From a virus: 23,872 bases of DNA. Made by a program: the position numbers and the translations under genes. The notes beneath the pieces are model-generated. The model saw only the letters and a program-made list of their open reading frames with translations, was not told the origin of the DNA and ran no database searches. Shown here piece after piece: positions 3,686 to 14,896 of this stretch; within the stretch, counting starts at the first letter, position 1, and every line of letters starts with the position of its first letter. The stretch is taken from positions 1 to 23,872 of the IMG/VR virus record IMGVR_UViG_3300042485_000447, one strand, 5' to 3'.

Positions 3686-3691
3686 ACCTTA

Positions 3692-3729
3692 AACCTCTTA
3701 GCTCAAATATGTAGTTGAGAGGTTTTTTT
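3692..3729 (+). terminator. Rho-independent terminator after the exonuclease gene
   Basis: AACCTCT (3692-3698) and AGAGGTT (3718-3724) form a perfect 7-bp stem; TCAA and TTGA in the loop can extend the pairing past a bulge. A run of seven T follows (3723-3729). It begins six bases after the exonuclease stop and ends twelve bases before the next start codon. No promoter is seen between it and that next gene. Confidence 0.8.
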
Positions 3730-3741
3730 AATTTAACAAAT

Positions 3742-4422
3742 ATGACGCTAGAAAAAATTATTTATGATGTACGCGAACAATTAAAATTATTTACAGATGA
3801 TTCTGAAATTAGTAACAGATACATTGCTCATTTACTTAATATTAAACGTGCTAAGTACTTACGTCAAGAATTAAACAATTATCAACGTACAACAGATATT
3901 TCTGTAAAACAAACATTGTGTTTAGGATTAGAAAGAGTTTCATCTAATCAATGTGATTTAGATTATGAGTGTGAGTATATTTTACGTACAGTACGTACAA
4001 TACCTCAACCATTAGAATTACATATTAAATCAGGTATTACAAGTGTACGTCCTACAAATAGAATTAGTACACCTTTTAACTTTGTGACAAAAGAGAAAGC
4101 TATTTATAGTAAACACTCACCTTTTGGGAAAGGAATCTTTTCTTTTTTAGATGCTGACAAACATATTTATTTATTGTCTACAGATGACGCGTTAAATATG
4201 TTAGAGTGTATTACAATTACAGGTGTATTTGAAGATCCTTTATCTTTAGAAGGTTATACAAACTGCTGTAGTTGTGAAGATGCTAAGCCTTGTTTTGACG
4301 AACTTAAAAGTGACTATCCTTTACAGCCACATTATATTGATTTAATTAAAAATGAAATTATTAAAGAATTAGCACTTGGTGCAAACGTTCAGGAAGATAA
4401 AGAAAATGACACTAATGATTAA
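3742..4422 (+). CDS. Tail ring protein / P22 gp4-like head-to-tail connector
   Basis: The ATG at 3742 gives a 226-aa protein. An upstream TTG at 3715 would place the start inside the terminator stem and is unlikely. The N-terminus (TLEKIIYDVREQLKLFTDDSEISNRYIAHLLNIKRA, residues 2 to about 37) is a helical connector-like segment. A beta-rich middle follows, then 'DYPLQPHYIDLIKNEIIKEL' and a charged tail ending in ENDTND. This organisation is typical of crAss-like ring proteins, also called tail-stabilisation proteins, which stack under the portal. Cysteines 175, 176, 178 and 184 form a tight cluster. The next gene overlaps its end by 17 bases, and the IHF-like, second ring and muzzle genes downstream support a tail-assembly role. 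Which of the several ring proteins it is cannot be told. Confidence 0.68.
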   Translation: MTLEKIIYDVREQLKLFTDDSEISNRYIAHLLNIKRAKYLRQELNNYQRTTDISVKQTLCLGLERVSSNQCDLDYECEYILRTVRTIPQPLELHIKSGITSVRPTNRISTPFNFVTKEKAIYSKHSPFGKGIFSFLDADKHIYLLSTDDALNMLECITITGVFEDPLSLEGYTNCCSCEDAKPCFDELKSDYPLQPHYIDLIKNEIIKELALGANVQEDKENDTND

Positions 4423-5707: not shown

Positions 5708-8700
5708 ATGAACAAAGCAGTTAAACAGTCTTACAAGGGAATGAGTCAGGACATATCTAAGTCTAAATCAAGTCCTGAATTTTATTTTGAAGGTAAAAAT
5801 ATAAGAGTTGTTGCTACTGATTCACAAAGTACAGGTTCTGTATCAAATGAAAAAGGTAACAAGTTAATTTATCAAATACCGACACCTGTAATTAATTATA
5901 CAACAAAGGTAATAACTTACGGAAGTAAAACATTATCTTATACCACAACTGATATTAACTATGGTCCAGCACAAAGTGCTGACCAGGTTATATTAGGATT
6001 TGCAAATACTAGAGATTATGTAATATTATTTACTACAGATAGTAATGGATTTGATTGTATTTGGAAAATAAGATATAATGATTATGATATTACATTATTG
6101 TATTTAAGAAATCTTAATTTTTCAACAAACAATCCTATTCAAGTTCTTAATAATTTTGAGAATGCATCTATAGATAAAGTTTATTGGATAGATGGTAAAT
6201 CACAAGTTAGATTTTTAAATATAAATCATTCAATTGCAAATGGTGATTTAGAAGCATTAATTGATGTACCTGTTACAACAATTGATATGGTTGGTAAATA
6301 CATACTTAAACAACCTTTAATTAAAGAAATATTAAGTGGTAGTAAACATACATCTGGTAGAATACAGTACGCGTATAACTTATATCGTTTAAATTCAACA
6401 CAAACTAAATTAAGTCCTTTAAGTAAAATGATTTCTTTAGATAAAGGTAATTTAGGTGGTGGTATTGTAAATGAGATTGTAGGTGCTTTACCTGTAATTG
6501 AAATTAACAATCTCGATACGACATTTACAAATATTAAAGTATATGCAATAAAGTACACATCTCTTAATGAAACACCTTCTATTTATTTAATAGATGATCG
6601 CGAAATTCCTAAAAACGGTAATGTTGAAATATTTGATGACGGATCAACAATAAGCACCTTATCTTTAGAGGAATTTATTTTTCTTGGATCAGATATTATT
6701 ATTCCTAAACATATAAATAATAAAGATAATAGATTATTATTTGCAAACTATAATGAGGTTAATTTTGAAATACTTTTAGACACTCGTGCATATAGTTTTA
6801 ATAGTTCAGGTACATGCACGGTTTTTGAAGATATTCGTTTATATGAAACAGGTGATACAACACCTAATATTAACGGTATTACTGGAATACCTACTAATAT
6901 TACAGGTCCATTATTTGCAAACGGTTTAAAACATGACAGTATTAACTTAGATTTTGATACGTATAAATTCCATTTAAATGGTACAACTCGTGGCGGTGAA
7001 GGTAGATATTTAAAGTATGAACTTACTCAAACACAAGATTATGATTCATCTGCACAATATTTTAAAGACGATGAGATTTATAGAATAGGTATTCAGTTTT
7101 ATAATAATTATGGACAAATAACATTACCAAATTGGATTGGTGATTTTAGATCAACTAATGGTAACTTAGAAGGTAATTATAATACATTAAAGTTTGCATT
7201 TAAATCTGAATTTTATACATGGTTAAATACATATTCTTTTGAAAACGATTATCAAAAACCTGTAGGATATAAAGTGTTAATTGCTGAAAGAACACTTAAT
7301 GATAAAACTATTATTGCAAGCGGTGTATTAAGTACAATGATGGCTCACGATAGATCATCTAGGGATGTACGCTACCCTGCTGACCAGACATATATTCAAA
7401 ATAGAGTTGAAGAATTACCTAAATTGCCTAATTTTCTTATTAGAAACTGTATGTTTAATACAGCTATAATACCTATGACCGCACCTTTACGTGTTACAAA
7501 TCATTTAGCAGAAATGAATCAAACACCTGGTGGTGGTTCAGTATATTCTGAAATATTAAGAGCTGATGCTGGAGATGTAGATACTGCTGGAAGATTTTAT
7601 CAGTTTAATCCAATGTTACAATTATATTCACCTGAAATATTATTTAAAGAAAGTTTTGCGTTAAGTAACAGTTTAAAACTTAGAGTTAAGGGTGCATTAA
7701 AAAATAAGTATAATGGAATGTGGGCTCGACGATATGGTACTACAAATTCAGATATTGTACATGAGGGTAAAATTAAAAATGGATTATCACCAGCATGGTC
7801 TTCAGAGGTAGAATCAATAGTTGGAAATGGTTATTATCCTTTAGATAGAGGTTTAATTGCACATCCAGGCGGTGAAGAAGCTAATAGAGTTTTACATTGG
7901 TTAGCCTATCGAGTATATGGTGATGTAGAGGTTAAAGATATTATTGTAGATAATGACTGCTTTGCTTTACAAAGTGATTTTTTAATTGTAGATCATTCAC
8001 CAGAACCACCTATAACAGAGGCTAAAATGAATTTAATTGATGCAAATACTAACGTACTTGTAGGTTTAAGTTTAAATTATCCTACTGCAGAAATAACATA
8101 TACAATTACACCCGATACAGATTTTACAACTGTACCATATAGTGTAAGTGGTTCGTCAAATGCTGCAGGTACTGATCTTTATTCAGGAGGTCTTATAGCT
8201 ACAACAGGTACACAAACAATTACAGTAACACACACACCTGATCCATTATTATTATCAACTACAACAACTTTAGATATTTCTAATTATTTAATATTATTAT
8301 CTAATGTATTATTTAAAGCATTTGTAGATATAACTGTAAAAATATATGATGATAGTGTAACACCTGTTATTAGAATTGAACGCGAAACATTATTTTTAGA
8401 TAATTATTTTGATAACACTGGAAAAATAACAACATCTACATCATTTTTTACACCTGCACCTACGTTAGTTGATTATAATATATATGGTACACCAGAATTA
8501 ACTGAAAAAGGTCAAAACTTTAAAACGTATAATAACGATACCAAATATAGATATTCTAATTCATTACAGAGTTTTTATTCCGATGGTAATAAAACTTGGG
8601 ATGATAAAGGTAAATATAATAGAAAAGTTGTTTCTATTAATAGTGATAACAATAGATGTATTACTCTTGTAACAGGTGATGATGATTCGTCATTATTAAA

Positions 8701-10276
8701 TACACAAAGACCTTCTATTGAAGAATTATATACAGATTTAGGTTTTACAGATGACAATAATGTTTTAATTGGTGAACTTGTAAGACCACATGATGAAATA
8801 TATTTAGGTAATATATATGGTGGTAATACATGGGAAGATAAACATCGTGCAAATTATCTTGAGGTTGGTGAATATATACCCTTAACAAATACTTCAGATA
8901 ATATAATTAATTCACCTGGTGATACGTATGTAAACAATTTTAAATTTTTAAGAATTGTTCGTAAAGATTCAGGTATAATTGAAGAAGGTATTCCACAAAT
9001 TGAAGAACTTGTAGAATATATTACTGAAACAACTGTTGATTTAAAAAATAGAGCAGATTTATCTTTAAATCTTTGGGATGATAAGTTTCAATATTCAGAT
9101 GCTGATTATCATAATTACAATAGAGTTTATTCACAAACACCTAATTTAATTAGACGTACTAATACACTATATACATTTAAAAAGATAAATAGTTATGATA
9201 CTAATATTATTGCATCTAAATTAAAATCATCTGGTGAGTTAATTGATAGTTGGACTGATATATTACAAAACGAAGTTATTACTTTAGATGGTAAATACGG
9301 AGCTATTAATTCACTTGCAAACTTTAATGATGAAATATACGCAATACAAGATAGAGCTTTTGCATTTATATCTGTTAACCCTAGAGTTCAAATTCAAGGT
9401 AACGATGGTTTAGGTGTAGAACTTGGTACAGGTGGTGTGTTAAGCGATTACAAATATATTACAACAGATAGTGGTACATTAAATAAATGGTCAACTGTAG
9501 CATCTACACAAGGTTTATATTTTTATGATACACTTAATAGATCGTTTAACATCTTTAGAGGTAACGTAATTGGACTATCTGACAGTAAAGCACTTCATAC
9601 CTATTTTACAAATAATACTGTCTTAAACGATCTTAAATTAGATAATCATATATTAGGTACAGGTATATCATCAGGTTATGATTATATTAACAATGAAGTA
9701 TTGATGACGTTTCATCAAGATAGTAAACCTTCATTTACAATAGCATATAATGAATCACAACAGATGTTTACTTCGTTTTATGATTATACTCCAAGTTTTT
9801 ATATTAGTAGAGGACTATATTACATTACAACAGATCCAACTAATAAAAAGCTTTACAGACAATTTGAAGGTCAGTATAATACATTCTACGATGTTAAATA
9901 TCCTTCATACGTAACACTTAATGTAAATCCTGCTGCAGATTTTGATTGTGTATTTGATAATATCAATTTTAAATCAGAAGTTTATTCTTATGATGCTCTT
10001 ACAGGTCTATACACGATTGACAATCCAGATAAAACATTAACTGGTATTAGAGCTTACACAGATCATTTAGATTCAAATACGGGTACTGCAGTGACTCCTT
10101 TAATTTCAGGTAGAAATAATAATCTACGTCGTAAGTTTAGAGATTGGAACGCATTAATACCTCGTGCAGGTAGACAACGTATCAGAGGACCTTGGATTAA
10201 ACTTAAATTAGTGTTTGATCAACAAGGTGATTACAAGTTTATTTTACATGATACAAATATTTTTTATACTATATAA
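5708..10276 (+). CDS. Muzzle / tail tubular protein (P22 gp10-like, crAss-like type)
   Basis: This 1522-aa protein begins with the marked N-terminal pattern of the family: YKGMSQDISKSKSSPEFYFE, then GKNIRV and an 'NEKGNKLI' turn within residues 8-55. The body is almost entirely beta-rich with repeated propeller-like stretches (LNTQRPSIEELYTDLGF, IYAIQDRAFAFISVNP, VLMTFHQDSKPSFTIAYNE). The end, about residues 1475-1522, carries IPRAGRQRIRGPWIK and a last strand. The length of about 1500 aa fits muzzle proteins, which form the distal tail nozzle of crAss-like phages. Residues of about 775-920 are Thr- and Ser-rich and look like an inserted beta domain. It follows the ring genes, 17 bases after the previous stop, and is followed by a promoter, so it probably ends a transcription unit. 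Confidence 0.8.
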   Translation: MNKAVKQSYKGMSQDISKSKSSPEFYFEGKNIRVVATDSQSTGSVSNEKGNKLIYQIPTPVINYTTKVITYGSKTLSYTTTDINYGPAQSADQVILGFANTRDYVILFTTDSNGFDCIWKIRYNDYDITLLYLRNLNFSTNNPIQVLNNFENASIDKVYWIDGKSQVRFLNINHSIANGDLEALIDVPVTTIDMVGKYILKQPLIKEILSGSKHTSGRIQYAYNLYRLNSTQTKLSPLSKMISLDKGNLGGGIVNEIVGALPVIEINNLDTTFTNIKVYAIKYTSLNETPSIYLIDDREIPKNGNVEIFDDGSTISTLSLEEFIFLGSDIIIPKHINNKDNRLLFANYNEVNFEILLDTRAYSFNSSGTCTVFEDIRLYETGDTTPNINGITGIPTNITGPLFANGLKHDSINLDFDTYKFHLNGTTRGGEGRYLKYELTQTQDYDSSAQYFKDDEIYRIGIQFYNNYGQITLPNWIGDFRSTNGNLEGNYNTLKFAFKSEFYTWLNTYSFENDYQKPVGYKVLIAERTLNDKTIIASGVLSTMMAHDRSSRDVRYPADQTYIQNRVEELPKLPNFLIRNCMFNTAIIPMTAPLRVTNHLAEMNQTPGGGSVYSEILRADAGDVDTAGRFYQFNPMLQLYSPEILFKESFALSNSLKLRVKGALKNKYNGMWARRYGTTNSDIVHEGKIKNGLSPAWSSEVESIVGNGYYPLDRGLIAHPGGEEANRVLHWLAYRVYGDVEVKDIIVDNDCFALQSDFLIVDHSPEPPITEAKMNLIDANTNVLVGLSLNYPTAEITYTITPDTDFTTVPYSVSGSSNAAGTDLYSGGLIATTGTQTITVTHTPDPLLLSTTTTLDISNYLILLSNVLFKAFVDITVKIYDDSVTPVIRIERETLFLDNYFDNTGKITTSTSFFTPAPTLVDYNIYGTPELTEKGQNFKTYNNDTKYRYSNSLQSFYSDGNKTWDDKGKYNRKVVSINSDNNRCITLVTGDDDSSLLNTQRPSIEELYTDLGFTDDNNVLIGELVRPHDEIYLGNIYGGNTWEDKHRANYLEVGEYIPLTNTSDNIINSPGDTYVNNFKFLRIVRKDSGIIEEGIPQIEELVEYITETTVDLKNRADLSLNLWDDKFQYSDADYHNYNRVYSQTPNLIRRTNTLYTFKKINSYDTNIIASKLKSSGELIDSWTDILQNEVITLDGKYGAINSLANFNDEIYAIQDRAFAFISVNPRVQIQGNDGLGVELGTGGVLSDYKYITTDSGTLNKWSTVASTQGLYFYDTLNRSFNIFRGNVIGLSDSKALHTYFTNNTVLNDLKLDNHILGTGISSGYDYINNEVLMTFHQDSKPSFTIAYNESQQMFTSFYDYTPSFYISRGLYYITTDPTNKKLYRQFEGQYNTFYDVKYPSYVTLNVNPAADFDCVFDNINFKSEVYSYDALTGLYTIDNPDKTLTGIRAYTDHLDSNTGTAVTPLISGRNNNLRRKFRDWNALIPRAGRQRIRGPWIKLKLVFDQQGDYKFILHDTNIFYTI

Positions 10277-10307
10277 TAAAAAATATTATAAAATATACAA
10301 TTATTTC

Positions 10308-10339
10308 TTTGGAAATATAATAAATATTTCGTATATTTG
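10308..10339 (+). promoter_or_regulatory. Bacteroidota-type promoter of the cargo-gene operon
   Basis: TTTGG at 10308-10312 and TATATTTG at 10332-10339 reproduce the TTTG-N20-TAnnTTTG arrangement. The 16 bases ATTTCGTATATTTGTA (10326-10341) are identical to those of the promoter at 23391-23422, so the conserved element is longer than the core. Transcription would start near 10345, giving an unusually long leader of about 70 bases. Confidence 0.8.
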
Positions 10340-10369
10340 TAAAACAAATTTATTTAAGACAATACAATT

Positions 10370-10397
10370 AGAGGTGGGAGAAATCTCACCTTTTTTT
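10370..10397 (+). terminator. Terminator-like hairpin in the leader of the 1492-aa gene
   Basis: AGGTGGGA (10372-10379), loop GAAA, and TCTCACCT (10384-10391) make an 8-bp stem with one G-U pair and a GNRA tetraloop. Two further weak outer pairs are possible, and seven T follow (10391-10397). The form is that of an intrinsic terminator. It lies after the promoter and before the start codon at 10418, so it would sit in the transcript of that gene as an attenuator or 5' stabiliser, or serve to end read-through from the muzzle gene. Confidence 0.75.
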
Positions 10398-10417
10398 ATA
10401 ATATAAAATTTTAAAAT

Positions 10418-13400
10418 ATGCCAGATCCTAATAAAAGTGCAAATATTGCAAAAGCGTACAAACAACTTAAATTAAAAAATGATCAAGAAGTTGCAAATCA
10501 AAAAAAAGATGAGTTAAATCAATTTAAAAAAGGTTATGTACCATCTTCAAATAAATATAAAAAGCAATTACAAGATTATAAAGATAATGAACCTCAACTT
10601 ACACAAGGATATAAATCTACAGAAAAAGAAAGAGCGTTTAATAAACAACAGTATGATTCTAAAGAATGGGATGATAAAAAATGGGGTTATTATGAAAATG
10701 TAGCCACAGCTGCGGAATTAGGAAATTTTGTACCTCATCCAGCAGCACAAGTTATAGGTAAAGCAGGAAGTGTAGCTTCTGCTGCATTAGCTGCAAGAAA
10801 AGCTAAATTAGAATATGATAAAGGAAATTATTTAAATGCAGGATTAAACGCTGGTTTAGGTCTTTTTTCTGCAGGTTTAGGTGCTAAAACTGGTATAAAT
10901 ACAGTAAAAGCTTCAAAATTAAATAGTTTAGAACGTGCTGTAGCACCTAGCGAATTTGTTCCAGGTACAATGGGTAATTTTAATACAGGTCGTATTCAAT
11001 ATAAAGTACCTAATTATTTAAATACATTTGCAAAAAATAATCCAGATGTTTTAAAAAATAGAGCATCTTTAGGTCTTGTAGGTACAGATGCTGTTACAGA
11101 TTTTAGCACACCTAATAATATACAACACGCAGATGGTGGACCTATTGATCCTATTAAAAATAAAATAACTACTCCTGCTACAAAAGCAGATAGTCTTGCA
11201 GTGTTTAATAATACAAAAGCTATTGAAGATTATTTTCTTAAAAATAAATATATAAAGCAAGACGTAAAAGATGATAAACGCTATAAACAAAGAATTAAAA
11301 ACACTGAAGAAATTATTAAAGATACTAAAAAATGGTTAAAAGAAGCACAAAATATGGATGTTTCTCCGTTTACAGGTGTAACAGTTGCTGATAAAAATAA
11401 AGCTATTAAAGAAGCTAAAAATGAAATTAGTTTTTTACAAAAAAATCTTACAAATATTAAACAAGAAAATGACCCAAAAAAATATATTTCTGAATTAGAA
11501 AAAAGTAAAAAATTATTTAATGACAGAAAAATAAATGAGGGTATGCATATAGATGTAAATGGAAATCTTATAAAAACTAAACCTTCTATTGATAATTATT
11601 ATTCTCCTATTGATGACAATACTTTTTATCAAAGAGAAAAGTCACAAGGTTTTTTAGATTTAAGATCACCTATGCCTTTATATGATAAAAGAATAACCCC
11701 ACAAGGTTTATCTCAATTTAAATCTCCAGATTTAGTTAAACGTGATAATTTACTAGATTTATTATCTAAAACAACAGATAATAAACAAAAAGCAGCAATT
11801 CAAAAACAAATAGACAGTCTTGAATATACTGACAATGTAGAAATGTATAAATATGATCCTCTTGCTGTAGTGCCTTTTGATATGGTTCCTGCTGAACAAC
11901 AGGAGGAAAGAATTAGAAAATATGGAACAAGTGGTGTACCAAAAAGTTTTATACAGCAGCATCCTAACTGGATTACAAATCAAAAAAATACAATACCTTT
12001 AAATATTACACAAGGTAAAAATTCTATACAATCAATACAAAATAATTTACAACCTGCAGGATTAGTACAAAATTCTTTAAATACAAATCCTGTTACAATT
12101 CAACAACCAGTTAGAGTACCAAAATCTTATAATATTGTAGATACTAACAATCAGCCTTTTGGTGGAGGAGAAACTTTTTATAAGTCTACTGATCTATCTG
12201 ATTTAAATAAACTACCTGCTGAAGGGTGGAATAGAAAAATAACACCTCAGTATGCTGACGGTGGTTTTATACATAATCAACTTAAACCTAGTTTAAACAA
12301 TTATTTAAATAATAATATGAAACAATATGCTCAAGGTGGACAACTTACTCGTTTTGATGAAGGTGGTACACACGAACAAAATCCTTTAGGAGGAATTCCT
12401 CAAGGTCAAGATGGACAAGGTAATATGAATACAGTTGAGCAAGGTGAAACTAAAAAGAATAATTTTGTTTATTCTAATAGAATTTCATTAGATAAAGATT
12501 TAATTAAACAATTTAATCTACCAGGATATATATCTAATAAAAGTGTAGCAGACGCATCTAAAGCAATTGATGAACAGTTTAAAGATCGTCAAGATAAATA
12601 TGCACAAGAAACTAAGAAAACATTATTAGAAAGATTATCTCAAGCTCAAGAATATCTTAAAGAGAAAGAGCAGGCTCAACAAGAGCAGATTAATCAATCT
12701 ATGCAAGCTAATTCACAACAAGTTCCTGATATGATGGAAGGTCAAATTCCTGAAGGAATGGAAGAATATGCTGAACAAGGTATGCAACAAAATCCTCAAG
12801 AAGAAATGATGGAGGGTCAACAACAGATGTACTTAGGTGGATCGTTTGGTGTTGCTGAAGCGGGTAATATGACTGCAGGTGGTAAAGGAATTGGTGCAAA
12901 CACACCTTTATCTAAAGTTTATGCAGGTCAACAATATATGATGGGTGGTCGTATAAATAAATACGTTGACGGTGGTCGTCCACAAATAACACCTTTAAAT
13001 CTTACACCAGCAGGTTTAGTTTCTACACCAACGGTAATGCCTACGGCAAATGTTGCAGATATAAGTAGATTAGGTGCTACTGCAAATACCGCAGGTGCTG
13101 CAGGTGCTACAGGTGCTACAGGTAGTATACCAGGTGGTGTTGCGGGAGCTTTAGGGATGGCGAGCGGTGTAATGGGATTGGCAAATTTATCACAAGGTAA
13201 AGGTGCTTCTACAAATAAAGGTATGTCAGCATTAAGTGGTGCAATGCAAGGTGCTGCAGGTGGTGCGGCATTAGGTCCTATAGGTGCTGGTGTTGGTGCT
13301 GCTTTTGGTATAGGTGCAGGTTTATTAGGTTCTGCTGCAGCAAGTCGTCAAGAAATGCGTGAAAATGATACAGCTGCTGCAACATATAATAATCAATTTA

Positions 13401-14896
13401 CAGATAAATATGCATTTGGTGGTACACTTAAACCAGGTGTTAAATATTCAGTTGGAAATAGTACAATAAGACCTTCAGTTGAAATGAAAAATAACACTGT
13501 TGCTATGATGGCAAATGGTGGAGAATTAACTAAAAATATGTTTAGTGACAATAGTAATTTATATGCAAATAGATATGCACTTGGTGGTGATATAGATCCA
13601 CCTAACGCAATATATGGTGAAGGTGAAAACAAAATTAAAAATGTTCAATCTATATTAAAAGTACCGCAAAGTGGTAATGCACTTACACAAACTAAAGCTG
13701 CGTGGAATAAATATCAGATTCCAGAATACGATCTTCGTAAAAAAGGAGTTAATTATATGTATCCTTGGCAAGAAAAAATTGATCAAGAACAAAACATTTA
13801 TACTGCAATGGGATTAACTCCAGGAGGAAGACAGTATAAACAATCATCTAACCTTACTCCCGCTGGAGTAAAATCTATATCTGCAACACAGCAGTTGCAA
13901 GAATCAATACAAAATTCTAGCATGGATGTTAACAAAGACGGTATTAGAGATGCCTTTGCAAATAATCCTAATATAAATTTAGAAGCCTTAAAAAACTTTA
14001 AAATAGGAGAAGGTATTAATGATAATGCTTCTTTAAGTTATGGCGACCGTTATGCTGAAGATGGTGTTAATTTTAAAATACCTAATCAAACTATAATGAC
14101 TCCTACAGATCAATATGGTAATGGAGTTAATACTGGTGCTGAACAAAAAGTAAATCTTCCTGAAACTAGATTTAGTAGAACTATGAATAAAGTAGGGCAA
14201 GGTATTGGAGAAAATTACGGTCAAGCTATGAGATATGTTCCTGTAGCAATGAATGCTTATCAATTATCACAAATTAGAAAACCTCAAGCTACACAATATA
14301 ATACATTACAAGATAAGTTTAGACCACAGTATGTAGATGAAGCACAACTTCAAAACATCGCAGCTCAAACACAACGTAATCAAATTAATGCACTTAGTCA
14401 AAGTGGTGCGTCGCCTGCACAAATGAGAGCTGCTATATTAGGTTCAGGTGTTAATATGAATAGAGGGTTATCTGAAGCTTATGCAAATGCTGCAGCTGAA
14501 AAAAGAGCAACTGACGAAAGAGGTCTCGCATTTGATGCTTCAATTAATGCACAGAATGCAGGTATTAAAAATAGAGCAATTGATGAATACCGTGCAGATC
14601 AAGGTAACTACGATACACAACGATCTAAATATTTAAGTGCTATTGGTACAGATATTGGATCAATTGGTAAAGAAGAGGTTAATAAAGATCAAATTGCATC
14701 AATGCTTGGTTATACTTGGAGAGGTAAATATCTTGTAGATAAAAATGGTAATAAAGCAACTCCTCAACAAATTGCACAAGCTAAAAATGCAATAACATCT
14801 GGAGATACAAAACCTGTATATAATGCTACAACAGGTGAAAAAATAAATTACGGTAGTTACGGAGGATTTTTAAAAACAAATAAAAGAGGATACTAA
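10418..14896 (+). CDS. Large virion cargo/ejection protein with YAxGG motifs
   Basis: The 1492-aa product resembles structural proteins known from crAss-like phages. The N-terminus is Lys- and Gln-rich and disordered. A small-residue helical region follows at about 100-175 (AAQVIGKAGSVASAALAARK, then GLNAGLGLFSAGLG). The protein then has the block GGTHEQNPLGGIPQGQDGQG...VEQGE...FVYSNRI (649 to about 690), a pattern I recall as conserved in these phages. A Gln/Glu-rich helix (730-800) precedes a Gly/Ala-rich glycine-zipper stretch (about 885-985). A short motif, [YHM]A-x-GG or similar, occurs at 237, 612, 637, 647, 805, 841, 849, 998, 1031 and 1053. The Ala/Gln-rich end (1290-1492) is helical. 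It heads an operon with two further virion genes, each starting two bases after the previous stop. It is probably packaged in the capsid and ejected; membrane activity of the Gly-rich parts is inference. Confidence 0.65.
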   Translation: MPDPNKSANIAKAYKQLKLKNDQEVANQKKDELNQFKKGYVPSSNKYKKQLQDYKDNEPQLTQGYKSTEKERAFNKQQYDSKEWDDKKWGYYENVATAAELGNFVPHPAAQVIGKAGSVASAALAARKAKLEYDKGNYLNAGLNAGLGLFSAGLGAKTGINTVKASKLNSLERAVAPSEFVPGTMGNFNTGRIQYKVPNYLNTFAKNNPDVLKNRASLGLVGTDAVTDFSTPNNIQHADGGPIDPIKNKITTPATKADSLAVFNNTKAIEDYFLKNKYIKQDVKDDKRYKQRIKNTEEIIKDTKKWLKEAQNMDVSPFTGVTVADKNKAIKEAKNEISFLQKNLTNIKQENDPKKYISELEKSKKLFNDRKINEGMHIDVNGNLIKTKPSIDNYYSPIDDNTFYQREKSQGFLDLRSPMPLYDKRITPQGLSQFKSPDLVKRDNLLDLLSKTTDNKQKAAIQKQIDSLEYTDNVEMYKYDPLAVVPFDMVPAEQQEERIRKYGTSGVPKSFIQQHPNWITNQKNTIPLNITQGKNSIQSIQNNLQPAGLVQNSLNTNPVTIQQPVRVPKSYNIVDTNNQPFGGGETFYKSTDLSDLNKLPAEGWNRKITPQYADGGFIHNQLKPSLNNYLNNNMKQYAQGGQLTRFDEGGTHEQNPLGGIPQGQDGQGNMNTVEQGETKKNNFVYSNRISLDKDLIKQFNLPGYISNKSVADASKAIDEQFKDRQDKYAQETKKTLLERLSQAQEYLKEKEQAQQEQINQSMQANSQQVPDMMEGQIPEGMEEYAEQGMQQNPQEEMMEGQQQMYLGGSFGVAEAGNMTAGGKGIGANTPLSKVYAGQQYMMGGRINKYVDGGRPQITPLNLTPAGLVSTPTVMPTANVADISRLGATANTAGAAGATGATGSIPGGVAGALGMASGVMGLANLSQGKGASTNKGMSALSGAMQGAAGGAALGPIGAGVGAAFGIGAGLLGSAAASRQEMRENDTAAATYNNQFTDKYAFGGTLKPGVKYSVGNSTIRPSVEMKNNTVAMMANGGELTKNMFSDNSNLYANRYALGGDIDPPNAIYGEGENKIKNVQSILKVPQSGNALTQTKAAWNKYQIPEYDLRKKGVNYMYPWQEKIDQEQNIYTAMGLTPGGRQYKQSSNLTPAGVKSISATQQLQESIQNSSMDVNKDGIRDAFANNPNINLEALKNFKIGEGINDNASLSYGDRYAEDGVNFKIPNQTIMTPTDQYGNGVNTGAEQKVNLPETRFSRTMNKVGQGIGENYGQAMRYVPVAMNAYQLSQIRKPQATQYNTLQDKFRPQYVDEAQLQNIAAQTQRNQINALSQSGASPAQMRAAILGSGVNMNRGLSEAYANAAAEKRATDERGLAFDASINAQNAGIKNRAIDEYRADQGNYDTQRSKYLSAIGTDIGSIGKEEVNKDQIASMLGYTWRGKYLVDKNGNKATPQQIAQAKNAITSGDTKPVYNATTGEKINYGSYGGFLKTNKRGY
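13091..13123 (+). repeat. 9-bp in-frame tandem repeat in the 1492-aa gene
   Basis: The unit (G/A)CAGGTGCT is repeated three times and begins a fourth copy, with first-base variation: GCAGGTGCT twice, then ACAGGTGCT, then ACAGGT. It encodes Ala-Gly-Ala / Thr-Gly-Ala triplets at the start of the Gly/Ala-rich segment. Repeats of this kind can change copy number without breaking the frame. Confidence 0.7.

Follow-up and report, generated by a model that had tools for sequence, protein, structure and literature searches.

A promoter-proximal hairpin in the leader of the cargo gene in a clade of crAss-like phages: a candidate leaky terminator

Phage T7 carries within an operon the partial terminator T-phi, which lies after the capsid gene and sets stoichiometry. 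In T4-like phages, promoter-early stem-loop cassettes (PeSL) have reportedly been described, by Arbiol in 2010 and by Comeau in 2014. Internal terminators are also known from ABC transporter operons, according to the available portion of one source (PMC9045158). For crAss-like phages, the accessible sections of a review describe expression only as early, middle and late blocks (PMC10136315), and little is known about the dosing and timing of their late genes. In searches of the open-licence literature, no title or opening of an abstract among the papers returned described a promoter-hairpin-gene element for crAss-like phages, crAss001 or Crassvirales. Such a conserved unit, together with a sister clade in which the order is reversed, offers a natural comparison for the study of transcription control in Bacteroidetes phages.

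The window analysed here is a whole virus record of 23,872 bases, and its proteins match crAss-like phage families. The junction under study lies between two genes of the plus strand, the muzzle gene (5708..10276, 1522 aa; Pfam crAss_MUZ, 5e-200, and crAss_MUZ_C), which is the upstream neighbour of the hairpin, and the gene of cargo protein 1 (10418..14896, 1492 aa; Pfam crAss_CARG1, 9e-24), which is the first gene after it. Judged by the muzzle protein, the nearest named phage was Cellulophaga phage phi14:2 (48.6% over 600 residues). Positions 9000-14000 of the window gave no megablast match in the phage record collection, and no match was obtained when the window was searched against Rfam.

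Comparison with the published Bacteroidetes consensus TTTG / TAnnTTTG, as given in the available part of its source (PMC7366714), identified a promoter of the sigma-ABfr type on the plus strand. The -33 element TTTG (10308..10311) is separated by a 20-nt spacer from the -7 element TATATTTG (10332..10339). A 6-bp dyad (ATTTGT-aaa-ACAAAT) overlaps the 3' half of the -7 element. The transcript would be expected to start near 10346, with an unpaired, A/T-rich leader (10346..10369, plus strand) that holds no ATG. Directly after it comes the plus-strand stem-loop (10370..10393), with 9-10 pairs (10 including flanks) and the loop GAAA. A T7 tract (10391..10397) directly adjoins the 3' arm, and the tract begins with bases that pair with the 5' flank. 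An A/T-rich spacer (10398..10417) leads from there to the start codon. The G-U pairs of the stem form only in plus-strand RNA. The G+C-rich stem with the U-tract directly behind it is the hallmark of an intrinsic terminator. A preliminary description of this DNA had located a hairpin between the promoter and the 1492-aa gene, about 25 bases past the expected start and 20 bases before the start codon; this proved accurate, as the stem begins about 24 nt past the predicted start and the T-tract ends at 10397, ahead of the ATG at 10418.

A strict hairpin search, which required a stem of 9 or more pairs (4 or more of them G-C) with 6 or more T immediately behind it, returned two sites in the window, with T-tracts at 3723 and 10391. 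Shuffled windows held a mean of 0.007 strict sites each, only 2 of 300 having any, and for the 141-nt muzzle-cargo gap no strict hairpin appeared in 5000 shuffles. The junction hairpin with its T-tract is therefore unlikely to be due to chance. A looser scan found 10 terminator-like sites in the window, against 5.1 +/- 2.6 expected, and the longest stem among them was that of the junction. When the 105-nt stretch was folded whole, z was only -1.29, since the flanks are unstructured. These chance tests, and the covariation test given below, address structure and not function.

Scanning viral contigs by muzzle alignment yielded 66 loci. Of these, 61 were read from the end of the muzzle gene to the next gene, which together with the window gave 62 junctions, grouped by eye; left out were L077, L080, L085 and L087, in which the match does not extend to the end of the muzzle gene, and the distant L091. 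The record G011 was taken without its last 363 bases. The order seen in the window (promoter, leader, hairpin, T-tract, ATG; hereafter P-T) was found in 15 of the 62 junctions, among them the near-copies L037 and L038, and L029, in which an inserted GIY-YIG gene precedes the hairpin. The opposite order, a terminator-like hairpin followed by a promoter (T-P), was present in 13 junctions, including L043 and L044, where the hairpin is preceded by an ORF overlapping the muzzle stop. The other 34 had no such hairpin in the gap, and many of these carry a -7 box 4-7 nt before the ATG. Among 16 named Crassvirales junctions none was P-T, while about nine were T-P by eye, two of these being identical. 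Absence from close relatives had been proposed as evidence against the hairpin; since the same arrangement was found in relatives, the claim stands.

Between P-T lineages the sequence of the stem differs and its pairing is retained. In five stems of equal length, 96.4% of the cells pair and four pairs have changed on both sides; covariation was 0.382, compared with 0.186 +/- 0.054 after shuffling (0 of 500 reached it) and with 0.05-0.22 when the structure was slid out of the real register. The T-tract was T7 in 12 and T6 in one of the 13 P-T loci measured, window included, and in these the distance from the expected start to the end of the T-tract was 52-59 nt. From there to the ATG, P-T loci have 12-22 nt. 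Structure and U-tract are kept across divergent relatives, as in intrinsic terminators.

The cassette also proved well conserved in sequence among near relatives. From the -7 box to the T-tract the window is 95% identical to L028, versus 74% for muzzle DNA and 55% for four-fold sites of identical residues in the neighbouring gene. The corresponding values were 98%, 76% and 62% for L036/L039, and 92%, 66% and 36% for L030/L036; for L032/L035 the comparison gave 94%, with an indel between the two. As a control, the second strict hairpin of the window (3691-3729) was found to be identical to its counterpart in the related record G002 as well, so strong conservation is a general trait of the hairpins of these phages, beyond that of the junction. 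An 18-mer leader pattern had nine matches in viral contigs, four of them at the muzzle-cargo junction of records already known; the other five were set aside as chance matches, mostly ribosome-binding-site-like and in other phages. The 19-mer leader pattern of the window matched only the L028 record.

Several features of the junction vary between loci. L030 and L029/L004 have a degenerate -7 box. A dyad of 8-10 bp lies over the -7 box in all ten T-P junction promoters that have a box (L031, L033, L034, L040, L041, L063, L064, L078, L090 and L092). One of 6-9 bp was seen in 4 of 13 P-T junctions (6 bp in the window, 10334-10348) and in none of 27 others; genome-wide, in 17 records, only 59 of 2774 -7 boxes have a dyad that reaches 6 bp. 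The dyad could be an operator or a two-way promoter. In the promoter-only group (L065 and many relatives, e.g. L067-L070) the cargo start codon follows the -7 box by just 4-7 nt, so that the cargo mRNA is probably leaderless there. Genes with a Pfam GIY-YIG match occur at four junctions, between promoter and leader in L004 (4837-5499) and between hairpin and cargo gene in L037 (4462-5109), L039 (4423-4950) and L045 (4357-4941). The ORFs that overlap the muzzle stop in L043 and L044 look related to them, and GIY-YIG genes may help to spread junction variants. In L004 (record G003), leader, hairpin and a tract of seven T are kept before the structural gene, though the GIY-YIG gene has split them off from the promoter.

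When 22 core proteins of 14 near-complete records were used to build a tree (quick search, no bootstrap, arbitrary root), one branch separated the seven P-T records from the seven T-P records. Among these records the P-T arrangement is therefore the trait of one clade. A repeated origin, based on a tree of the muzzle C-terminus that needed five changes, was dropped after the core-protein tree. Because the two trees conflict, as seen for the muzzle C-termini of L045, L056, L048 and L088, the muzzle gene has probably recombined between clades. A protein of 90-103 aa, without assigned function, was present in 7/7 near-complete P-T records and 0/7 T-P records (G002 71729-72022, equal to L013 13229-13522; relatives in G003 and G005-G009). 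As a partner of the hairpin it was rejected, being confounded with the clade, and it was kept as a marker only.

The distribution of hairpins was also evaluated over 17 records, using mechanically called ORFs as genes. The P-T order occurred exactly once in each of eight records, always at the muzzle-cargo junction. In G003 it is split, and it was absent from G004 and the seven T-P records. All 17 records had other hairpins whose T-tract closely precedes an ATG, with no promoter box in between. One of them is the second strict site of the window, on the plus strand (hairpin 3691-3725, T7 3723-3729). It lies 12 nt before the ATG at 3742, without a promoter between, and separates the exonuclease gene from the tail ring 2 gene, both named from Pfam matches of the G002 orthologues. 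Identical in G002, it has other stems in G001 and G003. G002 carries a hairpin between the same two genes and another that separates the auxiliary capsid gene from a probable tail hub gene, the latter scoring below the Pfam cut-off. The genes behind these hairpins have no promoter of their own, and therefore the hairpins must be read through. The preliminary description had argued that the junction hairpin cannot simply end the transcript of its own promoter. This reasoning is sound: selection maintains both the promoter and the hairpin, and therefore transcripts must pass the hairpin; the paradox that had been raised is removed by the read-through of the promoterless hairpins. These observations suggest that leaky terminators are in general use in these operons.

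With moderate confidence, the junction hairpin can be read as a leaky intrinsic (Rho-independent) terminator within the 5' leader of the late cargo operon. Transcription by host RNA polymerase would begin at the TTTG/TATATTTG promoter and produce about 52 nt of leader (52-59 nt in relatives). Part of the polymerases would stop at the U-tract and release a short RNA, and the remaining ones would pass the hairpin to give the cargo-1 mRNA. Polymerases arriving from the muzzle gene would face the same filter. The net effect would be that the injected cargo proteins are kept low and buffered relative to the upstream structural proteins, although both leakiness and dose control are deduced from sequence features. 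By a terminator score, 14 P-T hairpins reached 11-25 and 10 T-P terminators 5-10, on a yardstick of only four convergent-gene terminators at 27-39. In crAss001, the middle and late genes are thought to be made by host polymerase, in the available text of the source (PMC8375218), which fits the Bacteroidetes promoter type of the junction. The same text divides the large polymerase genes of crAss001 between the middle and the late stage, making special control at the junction plausible. The frequency of junctions without a hairpin (34/62) counts against a leaky terminator, showing that the gene order does not need one, and so does the degenerate -7 box of some loci.

A less probable reading is a regulated attenuator, in which a phage or host factor acting on the conserved leader would let polymerase pass late and so time the cargo operon. 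In L027, L030, L036 and L039 the unpaired leader and stem have a mean pairwise identity of 89-90% (about 90% for the leader) and the -7 region 86%, versus 70% for the 40 nt around and before the -33 element. When L004, whose promoter lies elsewhere, was added, leader and stem kept 88-90% and the preceding parts dropped to 59-66%. Moreover, the hosts use UpxY antiterminators on the leaders of capsule operons, as far as the available part of the source extends (PMC12118408). Against this, the leader differs between lineages (59% for the cassette of window and L027). In 14 loci the leader showed no fold with either stem arm that could compete with the hairpin, duplex energies being -5.6 to +1.8 kcal/mol versus -12 to -16 kcal/mol for the hairpin. 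The NusG family (PF02357) was matched in 0/5 records searched, several of which are fragments, the window having only 24 kb. Leader-peptide attenuation was rejected, as none of the leaders examined has an ATG between the expected start and the stem. Of the attenuator relieved by an antiterminator that the preliminary description had suggested, the conserved position fits, whereas a competing fold, a leader start codon and, in the five records searched, a NusG-type factor were not found; a classical attenuator is thus not supported by the sequences, and a trans-acting antiterminator may act on the cargo leader. A more elaborate scenario appears doubtful: that the terminator insulating the cargo promoter became a switch in this clade, the conserved leader loading a non-NusG antitermination factor that would open the operon of cargo and RNA-polymerase genes at a defined moment, whereas in the sister clade the same promoter would be controlled through the 8-10 bp dyad over its -7 box.

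A 5' hairpin that protects or matures the cargo mRNA without stopping transcription seems unlikely. It would suit the conserved pairing and the location near the expected 5' end. Such a structure needs no T-tract, yet T6-7 is kept at the stem in 13/13 loci while the stem changes, which the stabilising structure put forward in the preliminary description leaves unexplained.

Still less probable is a one-way insulator, which would block read-through from the muzzle gene while polymerases from the near promoter, being still in early elongation, get past it. At this junction the sister clade and named relatives do have a terminator ahead of the promoter, but an insulator in the P-T order requires promoter-proximal escape, whereas the terminator-promoter order would suffice without it. 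The barrier to read-through suggested earlier fits the sister clade, and in the window it may be part of the function. A small RNA gene, whose promoter and hairpin would yield a separately functioning RNA of 52-59 nt, with the cargo gene expressed by read-through, is very improbable: a mapped start and an intrinsic terminator do mark confident small RNAs in Bacteroides, in the available part of the source (PMC7366714), but the leader drifts between lineages and the 18- and 19-base leader patterns occur with a hairpin at no other place in viral contigs.

As a leaky terminator, the junction hairpin would resemble T7 T-phi and, as far as the accessible text describes them, the ABC transporter operons (PMC9045158), in all of which a leaky intrinsic terminator lies inside an operon. 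In G002, the hairpins that follow the auxiliary capsid gene and the exonuclease gene also resemble such stoichiometry-setting terminators. Unlike these systems, the candidate terminator of the crAss-like phages immediately follows a promoter and lies within the leader of the next gene. With PeSL, as far as the available text on them goes, it shares a composite promoter-terminator element between genes that is better conserved than its flanks. A promoter followed by a stem-loop between genes, the defining feature of PeSL, is present at P-T junctions, and the P-T junction is also targeted by GIY-YIG endonuclease genes. It differs in that PeSL are found in many copies in gene-shuffling regions, while the P-T element has one copy per record at one fixed place, the muzzle-cargo junction, is the trait of one clade and uses the Bacteroidetes promoter of a late operon. 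The UpxY-controlled capsule leaders of Bacteroides, in the available part of PMC12118408, likewise combine a transcription stop, an untranslated leader and a Bacteroidetes promoter; unlike in those operons, no UpxY/NusG match was found in the five records searched. In crAss001, DAC15 and other Steigviridae, the same two parts occur at the same junction in the opposite order, terminator then promoter.
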